This document shows, piece after piece, positions 29,910 to 35,589 of a DNA stretch of 64,000 nucleotides; position 1 is the first letter of the stretch, and each line of letters begins with the position of its first letter. Position numbers and translations under genes: made by a program. A model generated the notes under the pieces. The model searched no databases and was not told the origin of the DNA. It saw only the letters and a list, made by a program, of their open reading frames with translations. The stretch comes from an uncultured Acidimicrobiales bacterium (GTDB taxonomy: Bacteria; Actinomycetota; Acidimicrobiia; Acidimicrobiales; SZUA-35), in the NCBI GenBank assembly GCA_937922785.1, contig CALAJQ010000018.1:248001-312000 (forward strand). Reading direction: 5' to 3'.

Positions 29910-32900
29910 TTAGTTGGATCGCTTCGCTAGTTCAATCGAGACTGATCGGCCATCGACATCGGTGGCCGATTTCTCATTTGGGTCAACAATTTCAATTGCC
30001 GTCGCGAGGACCTGGCTTGCGATCCAGTCGGTGTGCGGAGCCACAACTGCCTTAGCTTCGGGTTCTAGCCCGAGAGACAGGCTGATCCTGTCAGTAACGT
30101 CTAGGTCGGCTTCTTTGCGAGCCTGCTGAACCAGGCGAACCAGATCACGAGCGAATCCTTCAGCCTCAAGGCTTTCGGTTGTTTCGGTATCAAGAACAAC
30201 GATTGCGTCGTTACCCCTCAACCCGGCGGCCGCAACGCCTTCTTTGGGGTCCAGCGCTAGCTCGAAGTCGCCTTCGGCAAGCGTGTGTCCGGCAACCGAA
30301 ACGGTTCCGTCATCGGCCATTTCCCAATCGCCTTGCTTGGCGGCTTTGATCACTGTTTGAACGTCTTTGCCTAGCTTGGGGCCTAAGACTCGACCGTTCG
30401 GCTTTAGCCGGAAGGCCCCGAACGCCTCGGCATCGTCAGAGAACAAGACCTGCTTGACGTTCACTTCGTCGGCCAAGATGTCAGACAACGGCTCAATTAT
30501 TGACGATCCGACTCCGGCGATCGTCACGGAAGCGAGAGGCAAACGAACTCGAAGATTTCGCTCTTCTCGAAGCGACAGGGCAGCGGATGCAACCTCGCGG
30601 AGGCGGTCCATCGCCACAACAAGATCGGTGTCTACCGGCAGCTCATCAAGGGCCGGCCAATCCTGCAGATGAACCGAGGCTCCACCATTGGACGCCTCTA
30701 CTTCATCAGCGTGTAGTCCGCTCCAAATCTCTTCGGCAACAAAAGGTAGTAGCGGTGCGATCACTCGGGCAACGGTGGTCAGAACTGTGTAAAGAGTGTC
30801 CAAGGCATCGGTGTCAAGCGGTTCACCGCTGGTGTTCCAGAAACGCTCGCGGCTTCTCCGGACGTACCAGTTCGTCAGCGCGTCTAGATAGCTTTGCACG
30901 CTGGCACAGGCTGTCGCCAGGTCATATGCGTCAAGAGCAGCAGTTGCGTTGTGGACCAGCTCTGAAGTCTTGGCCAACACATAGCGGTCAAGTGTGTTGG
31001 TCGAGCTGGTGTTGAAGCTGGCTTTGTATCCGTCAGCGTTGGCGTAAAGAGTGAAGAACGAATAGGTGTTCCAGATCGGGTTAAGAACCAGCCGTACAAC
31101 TTCGCGGATGCCCGAATCGTCAGCTTCGATCCGTGTGTCCAGCCCACGAAGAATTGGCGAGGAGATTAAGTACCAACGCATTGCGTCAGAACCCACAGTT
31201 TCGAATACTTCCAGCGGGTCTGGGTAGTTGCGGAGCTTCTTTGAGAGCTTGCGGCCTTCGGCGTCAAGTAGGACGCCGTGACAGATCACGTTGGCGAAAG
31301 CCGGCTTGTCGAACAGCGCAACGCCTAGAACGTGCATGGTGTAGAACCAGCCGCGGGTCTGGGCGATGTACTCAACAATAAAGTCGGCAGGGTTGTGCTG
31401 TTCGAATTCGTTGACGTTCTCAAATGGGTAGTGGTGCTGAGCAAATGGCATTGAGCCTGACTCAAACCAGCAGTCCAAGACTTCGGGAACTCTGCGCATC
31501 ATCGACTGACCGGATGGATCGTCGGGGTTGGGTCTAACGAGATCATCGATGTATGGCCGGTGGAGGTCAGTGGGTCGAACCCCAAAGTCGGCCTCGATCT
31601 CATCGATCGATCCGTAGACGTCGGTTCGGGGGAAGTCAGGATTGTCGCTTCGCCACACCGGTAGGGGCGCACCCCAAAAACGATTGCGGCTGATGCTCCA
31701 GTCGCGGGCGCCTTCAAGCCAGCGTCCAAACTGCCCCTGTTGGATATGGTCCGGGATCCAGTTGATCTCGTTGTTGACTTCCAGCAGACGGTCGGTCAGA
31801 TCGGTGACACGTACGTACCAGCTGTTTACGGCCCGGTAGATGATGGGCGTGTCAGTGCGCCAGCAGTGCGGATAGTTGTGGTCATAGGTTTCGTGACGCA
31901 ATACGACGTTGCCCCGAGCCTTCAGAAACTTGATTACTTCTGGGTTTGCGTCAAAGACGTTCTGGCCAGCGAAGTCCACTACATCTTCGGTAAAGCGGCC
32001 TGTTTCGTCAACAGGGACGACAAGTTCGATCCCAGCGGCTTCACAGACTCGTTGATCGTCCTCGCCGAATCCGGGTGCCATGTGGACAACGCCGGTGCCG
32101 TCTCCGGTTTCGACGAAGTCAGCGCCGATGATGACAAAGGAGTTCTTGCGTCCTGCGAAGTAGTCAAAGATGGGCTGATAGGTGCGGCCGGCGAGATCGG
32201 CCCCAGTCATGGTGGCAACTACCTCAGGGGGCTCGTCGCCAACGGAGAGCTCACGTTCGTAGTTCTCTAACGCAGCCTCGGCCACCACCACGAGGTCGCC
32301 GCCTTCGATCTTTACAACCACGTAGGTGATCTCGGGTCCTACGGCTAGAGCAAGGTTCGATGGCAAAGTCCAAGGCGTCGTGGTCCACGCAGCAATTGAA
32401 AGGGGACCCGGATCGCTAGCAACGGGGTCGAGTGCAAAGCGAACAGTGAGCGCAGGGTCCTGACGTGGCCTGGTGGCATCGTCAAGCCTGATCTCGAAGT
32501 TGGAGAGGGGGGTCTCAGCGCCCCACGAGTACGGCATCACTCGGTGGGCTTCATAAAGCAAGCCCTTGTCCCAAAGTTGCTTAAACGCCCAGATGACCGA
32601 CTCCATGTAGTCGAGATTCATCGTCTTGTAGTCGTTCTCAAAGTCGACCCAGCGGGCCATGCGGTTTACATAAGTTTCCCATTCGCCGGTGTAGCGAAGG
32701 ACAGATTCACGACAAGCGTTGTTGAAGTTGCCGATGCCAAAGTCGACGATGGCTTTTCGGCCCGAAACGCCAAGTTCTTTCTCTGTTTGCATCTCGGCAG
32801 GGAGTCCGTGGCAATCCCAGCCAAAGTTCCGCTCGACCCGTTTGCCTCGCATTGTTTGATAGCGCGGCACAACGTCTTTTACGTAGCCAGTGAGAAGGTG

Positions 32901-33104
32901 CCCGTAGTGGGGGAGACCATTCGCAAAAGGAGGACCATCATTAAACACGAACCTTTCACCATCAGGTTCATCCACTCTTTGTTCTATTGATTTGTTGAAA
33001 GTTTGGTTTTCTTCCCAGCGCGTCAGAATCTTGGACTCAAGGCCCGGAAAATCGGCTCGTGAAGAGACTTCTGGATAATGATGGCTATCCGATGGGTTAG
33101 TCAC
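29910..33104 (-). CDS. ileS: isoleucyl-tRNA synthetase
   Basis: A 1064-residue class I aminoacyl-tRNA synthetase charging tRNA-Ile. The HIGH motif appears as HYGH at residues 66-69 in GLPHYGHLLTG and the KMSKS loop as KLSKK near 618 in GRKLSKKLRNYPDP. These forms and the length indicate the type 2 (eukaryote-like) IleRS, a group known to be poorly sensitive to mupirocin. The editing domain and the anticodon-binding region are present. It starts with GTG at 33104, divergent from the dksA-like gene. No T-box leader is seen in the 103-base divergent spacer. Confidence 0.96.
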   Translation of the reverse strand: MTNPSDSHHYPEVSSRADFPGLESKILTRWEENQTFNKSIEQRVDEPDGERFVFNDGPPFANGLPHYGHLLTGYVKDVVPRYQTMRGKRVERNFGWDCHGLPAEMQTEKELGVSGRKAIVDFGIGNFNNACRESVLRYTGEWETYVNRMARWVDFENDYKTMNLDYMESVIWAFKQLWDKGLLYEAHRVMPYSWGAETPLSNFEIRLDDATRPRQDPALTVRFALDPVASDPGPLSIAAWTTTPWTLPSNLALAVGPEITYVVVKIEGGDLVVVAEAALENYERELSVGDEPPEVVATMTGADLAGRTYQPIFDYFAGRKNSFVIIGADFVETGDGTGVVHMAPGFGEDDQRVCEAAGIELVVPVDETGRFTEDVVDFAGQNVFDANPEVIKFLKARGNVVLRHETYDHNYPHCWRTDTPIIYRAVNSWYVRVTDLTDRLLEVNNEINWIPDHIQQGQFGRWLEGARDWSISRNRFWGAPLPVWRSDNPDFPRTDVYGSIDEIEADFGVRPTDLHRPYIDDLVRPNPDDPSGQSMMRRVPEVLDCWFESGSMPFAQHHYPFENVNEFEQHNPADFIVEYIAQTRGWFYTMHVLGVALFDKPAFANVICHGVLLDAEGRKLSKKLRNYPDPLEVFETVGSDAMRWYLISSPILRGLDTRIEADDSGIREVVRLVLNPIWNTYSFFTLYANADGYKASFNTSSTNTLDRYVLAKTSELVHNATAALDAYDLATACASVQSYLDALTNWYVRRSRERFWNTSGEPLDTDALDTLYTVLTTVARVIAPLLPFVAEEIWSGLHADEVEASNGGASVHLQDWPALDELPVDTDLVVAMDRLREVASAALSLREERNLRVRLPLASVTIAGVGSSIIEPLSDILADEVNVKQVLFSDDAEAFGAFRLKPNGRVLGPKLGKDVQTVIKAAKQGDWEMADDGTVSVAGHTLAEGDFELALDPKEGVAAAGLRGNDAIVVLDTETTESLEAEGFARDLVRLVQQARKEADLDVTDRISLSLGLEPEAKAVVAPHTDWIASQVLATAIEIVDPNEKSATDVDGRSVSIELAKRSN

Positions 33105-33148: not shown

Positions 33149-33179
33149 TTGGGGTGGAAGCCAAGTTTCGACATATAAT
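33149..33179 (+). promoter_or_regulatory. dksA-like gene promoter candidate
   Basis: A perfect TATAAT (33174-33179) lies 28 bases upstream of the chosen ATG. The best -35, TTGGGG (33149-33154), gives a long 19-base spacer, so the -35 is weak. GAGAAAGGG serves as ribosome-binding site. Confidence 0.45.
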
Positions 33180-33207
33180 GCGCCCCGCTTTGGGAGAAAG
33201 GGCGCAA

Positions 33208-34143
33208 ATGGCTGCGGCAACGAAAAATTCAAGGGGCAAACGGGGATCGACGAAGAAGGCGGCTGCGGTGAAACCCGCGGTGAAGAAGCGATCCGCGGCC
33301 AAGAAAACTGCGACAAGCGCCGTTAAGAAGACGGCCGCAGCAGCAGCCAAAAAGCCGGCGCGCAAGAAAGCGCCGTCTGCAAAGAAAGCATCGCCCGCAA
33401 AGAAGACGGTTGGCGCCAAGGCGGTTAAGAAAACAGCGAAGAAGGCCGTAACCAACAAGGCAGTCAAAAAGAAGGCAGCCAAAAAGAAGGCAGTTGCCAA
33501 AAAGGCTCCGGTCAAAAAAGCTGCCACTAAGAAGTCTGCAGTCAAAAAATCTGCTGGTAAAAAGGTTGCTACCAAAAAAGCAGCTAGCAAAAAGCCAGCT
33601 ACAAAAAAGACACCTGCCAAAAAGAGCGTCGCTAAGAAGTCGACAGCCAAGGCACCATCCAAAAAAGCCCCCGCAAAGAAATCGACTAGTACTCCGATGG
33701 CTACATCAAAAACCACCTCGGCGGCGCCTGAAAAAAAGGCACCACCTGCACCAAAGAAGCTCCGCATTCCTAAATTCCTAGAAGACAAAGCCTGGCTAGA
33801 TTCCCAGGTCGAACTACTAAAGCAAGAGCGCGAAAAGTACACCCGTAGCGCTGAACACCTGGCGGCAGAAGCCGCCGCCCTCATGGCCGATCGCGATCCA
33901 GGCGATGTCCAGTTCGACGAAGAGTCGGGCGAAGGCGACACCATTGCAGTTGAGCGAGACCGAGATCTTGCCCTTTCGCAGTCCGCGAGAAACTCTGTCG
34001 CTGAAATCGACGATGCTCTCAAGCGGATTGCTGAAGGCACCTACGGAATTTGTGTGCAGGGACCAGACATCATTCCGAAGGAGCGTCTGGAAGCTATTCC
34101 GGAGGCATCGGTGTGCGTCCAGCACAAAACAGCAATGTTCTAA
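33208..34143 (+). CDS. DksA/TraR-like protein with long histone-H1-like tail
   Basis: A 311-residue protein. Residues 1 to about 180 are almost entirely Lys, Ala, Thr, Ser, Val and Pro in KKA/AKK repeats, like the tails of histone H1 and of mycobacterial HupB. The C-terminal part (about 185-311) is a DksA/TraR-type module: a coiled coil (LDSQVELLKQEREKYTRSAEHLAAEAAAL), an acidic tip region and RNSVAEIDDALKRIAEGTYGIC leading to a zinc-finger-like end. That finger is degenerate, CVQG then CVQH instead of two CxxC pairs. DksA-type proteins act in the RNA-polymerase secondary channel; the tail suggests nucleic-acid binding. The ATG at 33208 has a good ribosome-binding site. lspA overlaps its last 31 bases. 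Confidence 0.82.
   Translation: MAAATKNSRGKRGSTKKAAAVKPAVKKRSAAKKTATSAVKKTAAAAAKKPARKKAPSAKKASPAKKTVGAKAVKKTAKKAVTNKAVKKKAAKKKAVAKKAPVKKAATKKSAVKKSAGKKVATKKAASKKPATKKTPAKKSVAKKSTAKAPSKKAPAKKSTSTPMATSKTTSAAPEKKAPPAPKKLRIPKFLEDKAWLDSQVELLKQEREKYTRSAEHLAAEAAALMADRDPGDVQFDEESGEGDTIAVERDRDLALSQSARNSVAEIDDALKRIAEGTYGICVQGPDIIPKERLEAIPEASVCVQHKTAMF
33220..33765 (+). repeat. AKK-type coding repeats with A-tracts
   Basis: The tail of the DksA-like gene consists of degenerate 12-15-base units around gcc-aaa-aag. From about 33510 the lysine codons shift from aag to aaa-aaa/aaa-aag, giving many A5-A7 runs, including two A-AAA-AAG heptamers read in the slippery frame (33603-33609 and 33732-33738). The first part of the tail uses gcc/gcg and aag codons instead. 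Confidence 0.7.
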
Positions 34144-34643
34144 CTAGCGTTCTGGCACCGTGCATTGCGGTGTTAGGTCTGGATCAGTTCACAAAACGGT
34201 GGGCGGTTTCCGCGCTTGCTGACGGACCAACCCAAGAGGTTCTAGGAGTTAGGTTCAATCTCTTCTTCAACCCGGGTGCGTCCTTTTCGATGTTCGCTGA
34301 CGGTTCTGCGGGTCCGGTGTTGGGAGTCTTGGCACTGATCATCTCAGCTGTGTTGTTGCGTGCTGGCTACAAGGCACAAGACCGCTGGTCGCCCATGATC
34401 TACGGCGTCATTGCTGGCGGGGCCTTGGGTAACTTCGCAGACAGATTGCTTAGGGCCGAAGACGGTTTCCTATCAGGACACGTCGTTGATTTCATCGACC
34501 TCGGCTGGTGGCCGGTTTTTAACATCGCTGACTCAGCCCTCATCGGTGGTGTTGCTGCGTTGTTCCTGGTAACGCTTACTGACAAGACCGAAGAAGAATC
34601 TGAGGCCGGCTCGTCAGGCGAAGAGATTGTCGTTGATGGTTGA
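34113..34643 (+). CDS. lspA: lipoprotein signal peptidase LspA
   Basis: A 176-residue membrane aspartic protease that removes lipoprotein signal peptides. About four hydrophobic segments are seen. The two catalytic aspartates are in GGALGNFADRLLR and FNIADSALIGG, and the DQFTKRWAV and FFNPGASFSMF segments match the family (NxGxxFS). The GTG start at 34113 has GGAGG seven bases upstream and lies inside the end of the dksA-like gene (31-base overlap). rluD starts eight bases before its stop, so dksA-like, lspA and rluD form a tight operon. Confidence 0.92.
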   Translation: MRPAQNSNVLTSVLAPCIAVLGLDQFTKRWAVSALADGPTQEVLGVRFNLFFNPGASFSMFADGSAGPVLGVLALIISAVLLRAGYKAQDRWSPMIYGVIAGGALGNFADRLLRAEDGFLSGHVVDFIDLGWWPVFNIADSALIGGVAALFLVTLTDKTEEESEAGSSGEEIVVDG

Positions 34644-35589
34644 GCGTTACAACGAAGAAGTTCCAGAGACACTCGATGGCCAGCGGGTCGATCGAATAGT
34701 TGCTCTCGTCACCGAGCTAAGCCGTTCCGAGGTTGCAAGCCTCATTGAAGCGGGCCTAGTTCTGGTGGACGGCGAGGCGCCGCCTAAGGCGTCAACAAAG
34801 CTGACAGCTGGTTCACATCTTGAGATCGAAGTTCCTGACAAACCTGTCGGTATCTCGCCCGATCCCGAAGTCTCAATCGAAGTGGTCTACAGCGATGAGC
34901 ACATCATCATCGTCAACAAACCTGCTGGCATGATTGTTCACCCTGGGGCGGGAGTCGATGCCGGAACTTTGGCCCAAGGCCTACTTCACAAGTACCCAGA
35001 GTTGGCCGAAATCGGTGATCCTGAAAGGCCCGGAATCGTTCACCGTTTGGACAAAGGAACTTCCGGATTATTAAGCGTTGCTCGCTCGCAACTGGCATAT
35101 GAGTCGCTGGGGGCCCAGCTCAGAGACCACTCGATGGAGCGCCGATACCTGACGCTCGTCTGGGGGGATCTTGAGAACAACGAAGGCGTCATCGATGCGG
35201 CCTTGGGGCGCTCTAACCGCCAGCCAATGCGTAGGGCTGTGGTAACAGAGGGTAAGCCGGCACGAACCTGGTACCGGGTCATGCAGCGTCTTGAAGATCC
35301 CAAGCTGACCGTTCTGGCCTGCCGCCTAGAGACGGGCAGAACCCACCAGATCAGGGTTCATCTTGAAGCTATTGGTAATCCGGTAGTTGGAGATGACCGC
35401 TACGGGCGAGGTGGAGGTGGCGTACGTAAAACCTTCGGTCTTGAGCGGCCTTTCCTTCACGCTCAGACATTGGGGCTTGAGCATCCCGAAAGTGGCGAGA
35501 TGCTTCGATTCCAGACACCCTTGCCTGATGACTTGGTCGCAGTGCTCACCAGTCTTGGCGGTGAAGTACCTCCGCTAGCTGACGCCTAG
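34636..35589 (+). CDS. rluD: 23S rRNA pseudouridine synthase, RluA family (RluD-like)
   Basis: A 317-residue enzyme with an N-terminal S4 RNA-binding domain (QRVDRIVALVTELSRSEVASLIEAGLVLVDG) and a RluA catalytic domain. The catalytic aspartate is in GIVHRLDKGTSGLL near residue 137, with LETGRTHQIRVHLE and PVVGDDRYG downstream. It should convert specific uridines in 23S rRNA to pseudouridine, though the exact positions cannot be told. The ATG at 34636 overlaps lspA. The 3' end overlaps the convergent nitroreductase gene by 44 bases. Confidence 0.92.
   Translation: MVERYNEEVPETLDGQRVDRIVALVTELSRSEVASLIEAGLVLVDGEAPPKASTKLTAGSHLEIEVPDKPVGISPDPEVSIEVVYSDEHIIIVNKPAGMIVHPGAGVDAGTLAQGLLHKYPELAEIGDPERPGIVHRLDKGTSGLLSVARSQLAYESLGAQLRDHSMERRYLTLVWGDLENNEGVIDAALGRSNRQPMRRAVVTEGKPARTWYRVMQRLEDPKLTVLACRLETGRTHQIRVHLEAIGNPVVGDDRYGRGGGGVRKTFGLERPFLHAQTLGLEHPESGEMLRFQTPLPDDLVAVLTSLGGEVPPLADA

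Follow-up and report, generated by a model that had tools for sequence, protein, structure and literature searches.

The window (the whole 64-kb stretch of DNA analysed in this study) carries on its forward strand, at positions 33208–34143, a ddbA-like gene encoding a protein of 311 aa. As judged from the reading of the open reading frame, profile searches and amino acid composition, this protein is composed of a histone-H1-like arm followed by a DksA-like module. The neighbouring genes, recognized by their open reading frames and synteny, are the divergently oriented ileS (29910–33104, reverse strand) and, on the forward strand, lspA, encoding signal peptidase II (34112–34643, start inferred), and a gene for an rluD-like pseudouridine synthase (34637–35589). 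The lspA gene overlaps the 3' end of the ddbA-like gene and is itself overlapped at its 3' end by the rluD-like gene, which fits one transcript. The block of ileS, ddbA-like gene, lspA and rluD is found again in genomes across the class and also outside it, and the operon with lspA and rluD that was proposed in the initial annotation is supported.

Upstream of the ATG at 33208, there is a purine-rich, ribosome-binding-like sequence GGGAGAAAGGG (33192–33202, forward strand), preceded by the hexamer TATAAT (33174–33179, forward strand), which was identified by sequence match and may serve the ddbA-lspA-rluD transcript as its -10 element. This is the sole exact copy of TATAAT on both strands of the window (4.1 expected by chance). 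The perfect -10 named in the initial annotation is thus present as a hexamer, but it is accompanied by no -35 element (no hexamer at normal spacing agreed in 4/6 or more positions) and is rare upstream of the related genes, being found in only 3 of 33 family members, for which the start codons were guessed.

The IleS proteins encoded at the ddbA locus throughout the class fall into two groups according to their identity with the window protein (29910–33104 compared with loci L008–L079), i.e. roughly 37–48% and 51–71%, with values coming partly from short contig pieces. At loci L031–L033, L071, L074–L077 and L079, ileS is co-directional with the ddbA-like gene, and not divergent from it. The two groups and the strand switch suggest replacement or rearrangement of ileS in place.

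Arm and module of the DdbA-like protein

The N-terminal arm (residues 1–182; 33208–33753, forward strand) was delineated on the basis of a Pfam profile, its composition and its recurrence in the family. It contains 32% lysine and 27% alanine, has a pI of 12.0 and a net charge of +61, and its residues 5–178 match the Pfam family HC2 (histone H1-like) with an E value of 1.9e-5, which is below the curated cut-off. The fusion of an H1-like segment with a DksA module, described in the initial annotation, is therefore real, but the segment is not a tail: it is N-terminal and precedes the module. With a fixed threshold, an in-frame, lysine-rich and strongly positive arm was found to precede the module in 31 of 33 family members, in 22 of 26 orthologs of the same order and in 32 of 37 of the same class, but in only 5 of 22 orthologs from elsewhere in the phylum; several of the relatives counted as armless represent short contigs or are borderline with respect to the threshold. 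The length of the arm varies among relatives.

The five armed orthologs from elsewhere in the phylum include those of four Streptomyces-like genomes (one genus, genomes of about 7–9.7 Mb, 100% complete, Streptomyces identity presumed from size and content), in which a Lys/Ala arm and a module with an intact CCCC finger are encoded beside ileS, lspA and rluD. The search for the same architecture in other Actinomycetota, recommended in the initial annotation, has thus revealed it in all parts of the class as well as in the Streptomyces-like genomes.

Such conservation also bears on the location of the protein start. If the Lys/Ala stretch were untranslated and the real protein began near the module, an internal ATG would be available at Met165. 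Nevertheless, the arm is in frame not only in the 31 of 33 family members, but also (using the threshold) in 54 of 63 other genomes of the class or order, and the ribosome-binding-like sequence lies directly before the ATG at 33208. A start located after the arm, which the initial annotation had considered as evidence against its proposal, is therefore unlikely, and an untranslated arm appears extremely improbable.

The 129 residues following the arm are acidic (pI of 4.7, charge of -9) and comprise the DksA-like module (33766–34140, forward strand), assigned by AlphaFold2 modelling, fold matches and profile searches. Residues 277–304 match Pfam zf-dskA_traR (E value of 0.0025), and the module matches the NCBIfam models bacill_yteA (5e-19) and DksA_like (2e-11), all of these scores being below the respective cut-offs. 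The AlphaFold2 model of the module (pLDDT of 88, built from a 103-row alignment, with no metal included) shows a two-helix coiled coil and a globular domain, as in canonical DksA. Foldseek searches with this predicted structure indicated DksA2 of Pseudomonas aeruginosa (4ijj; E value of 1.9e-5) as the best solved match and Escherichia coli DksA (1tjl) as the next one, and DksA within RNA polymerase complexes was also matched. Another structure among the matches, 6ptg from Chlamydia, is also cysteine-poor.

The tip of the predicted coiled coil (33889–33939, forward strand; DRDPGDVQFDEESGEGD) is conserved in the class, and the loop connecting the two helices in the AlphaFold2 model (module residues 42–55) reads DRDPGDVQFDEESG. 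A strict DxxDxA motif was not found in this loop, which carries DPGDVQ (DxxDxQ) instead. The columns of the alignment place DPGDVQ opposite DSGDGA (DxxDxA) of the Streptomyces-like orthologs, with the two acidic residues retained and the alanine not. The first acidic residue is present in 95 and the second in all of the 103 aligned sequences. The aspartates of the DxxDxA tip are needed for the function of DksA and TraR, but not for DksA binding (PMC9239242). Since the two acidic residues are kept and the alanine is lost, the effect of the ddbA-like protein on polymerase may differ through its DxxDxQ tip.

It could be argued that the module is a degenerating remnant and that the protein is now only an H1-like DNA-binding one: its finger lacks two of the four ligands, and in a sister group none of the four cysteines is left (SSLE). 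The remainder of the module does not show such decay, as it is mostly 42–76% identical across the class, its IPxxRLEAIP core is kept together with the predicted fold, 82 of 150 orthologs carry the stretch FDEESGEGD at the tip without any difference, and module residues G46, D47, F50, D51, E53 and G57 are nearly invariant. Degeneration of the module is thus improbable.

Zinc finger variation among the relatives

The region corresponding to the zinc finger (34051–34125, forward strand) has the sequence YGICVQGPDIIPKERLEAIPEASVCVQHK, with Cys282, Gly285, Cys303 and His306 at the canonical ligand positions and Asp287 located five residues after the first cysteine (Cys+5). The protein therefore lacks the canonical DksA C4 finger, CxxC-x17-CxxC, and the earlier observation that CVQG and CVQH stand where two CxxC pairs would be expected was confirmed: two of four zinc ligands are replaced.

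Matches to the module were found in 141 of 148 genomes of the class and 144 of 198 genomes of the phylum, and the whole protein used as a query gave matches in 35 of 39 family genomes; some of these are paralogs. Among 157 orthologs, the ligand patterns were CCCC (46), CACC (17), CGCH (15, i.e. the window protein and 14 relatives of its family), CSRY (11), SSLE (10), CCCD (10) and CSTA (8), the rest being other combinations. When the four ligand positions were masked for tree construction, 32 changes of pattern were counted on the tree, compared with a mean of about 100 after shuffling, and the finger patterns are thus inherited by lineage. The second-position cysteine changed at least four times, although counts of independent losses are rough, the tree being based on few columns, with many of its forks left open. 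Four family members (L137, L138, L139 and L142), constituting one clade on a long branch, carry C-x2-D...C-x2-H at the finger positions.

Of the orthologs sampled from the class and the order, 18 combine an arm with an intact CCCC finger, which indicates that the arm and the finger change are independent. The idea that the loss of the finger is tied to the arm was accordingly rejected. Armless relatives with full CxxC pairs, regarded in the initial annotation as a potential argument against the feature, do exist in part: seven were found elsewhere in the phylum, at a similar locus. They show that both traits are lineage-specific and do not make the feature false.

The globular domain most likely retains its fold without zinc, by analogy with P. 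aeruginosa DksA2, in which two cysteines are kept and which is zinc-free (PMC9213440); retention of the fold with an altered ligand set is less likely. In the latter case, the finger of the window's clade would have been rebuilt, with zinc held by Cys282, Asp287, Cys303 and His306 (C-D-C-H). This agrees with the presence of Asp at Cys+5 in all 15 C-G-C-H sequences, with C-x2-D...C-x2-H at the canonical positions in four other family members (a possible alternative metal site), and with the C-C-C-D pattern observed elsewhere in the phylum. On the other hand, Asp at Cys+5 lies two residues past the canonical position, an acidic residue at Cys+5 also occurs in relatives devoid of the other ligands (e.g. 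CEVSGEPIP), and most of the ligands are missing in many close relatives. A rebuilt site is therefore rather unlikely. It is less probable still that, as an H1-armed DksA protein with a C-D-C-H site, it controls polymerase in response to metal or redox conditions differently from DdbA and DksA. Published DksA homologs that lack the C4 finger can work like DksA (PMC9239242; PMC9213440).

Interpretation and comparison with known DksA-type proteins

The window protein is very probably an acidimicrobial ortholog of DdbA, i.e. a nucleoid-associated protein of the DksA superfamily, in which two finger ligands have been replaced (C-G-C-H). Its arm would bind DNA or the nucleoid, and its DksA-type module would bind RNA polymerase and affect transcription, while the globular domain is expected to hold its fold without the normal C4 zinc site, presumably free of zinc. 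Broad nucleic acid binding combined with RNA polymerase contact had already been put forward in the initial annotation; we retain this as an inference, but the known DdbA type had been overlooked there.

The same genome also encodes two RelA/SpoT-domain proteins and two HU-type proteins. A second DksA-like protein encoded in it (112 residues; G000:C20:18189-18413; L002, L003) is armless and has an intact CEIC...CINC finger.

The gene reveals no new kind of regulator. The combination of arm and module is already known as the DdbA type, described in 2013, and the only unusual feature is the replacement of finger cysteines, which its bacterial relatives share and for which there are precedents among other DksA proteins. 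No description of the arm combined with a changed finger in this class was found in the literature searched, the coverage of which was partial. The DdbA type, with its chromatin-like arm and polymerase-binding module, is near-universal in one class of Actinomycetota, where its fold and locus are maintained and its zinc site has been altered or lost repeatedly. Provided that these proteins are functional, they can do without the C4 finger, and the variants that occur naturally in the lineage could be used to probe the role of the finger.

Several known systems may be compared with the window protein. E. coli DksA (1tjl) shares with it the coiled coil and globular domain (TM-score of 0.66–0.76), but has a C4 zinc finger and a DxxDxA tip and lacks the arm. 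YteA-type TraR/DksA proteins (TIGR02890) provide the best NCBIfam match of the module (the 5e-19 mentioned above); however, the score is below the curated cut-off and the arm lies outside the model. DksA2 (4ijj) has the DksA fold and, similarly to the window protein, has kept the first cysteine of each pair and lost the second, so that its C-T-C-A (in the alignment) is close to C-G-C-H. It has no H1-like arm and is a paralog expressed under zinc starvation (PMC9213440), whereas the window gene is placed in a conserved housekeeping locus. The closest parallel in architecture is DdbA of Streptomyces coelicolor (SCO2075), which has an N-terminal H1-like and a C-terminal DksA domain and is reported to bind DNA, to modulate RNA polymerase and to affect nucleoid compaction (reviews PMC9043899, PMC11942623). 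The ileS, lspA and rluD neighbours are also common to the Streptomyces-like orthologs and the window gene, while the differences concern the finger, in which these orthologs keep four cysteines and the window protein has C-G-C-H, and the tip, which is DSGDGA (DxxDxA) in the former and DPGDVQ (DxxDxQ) in the latter.
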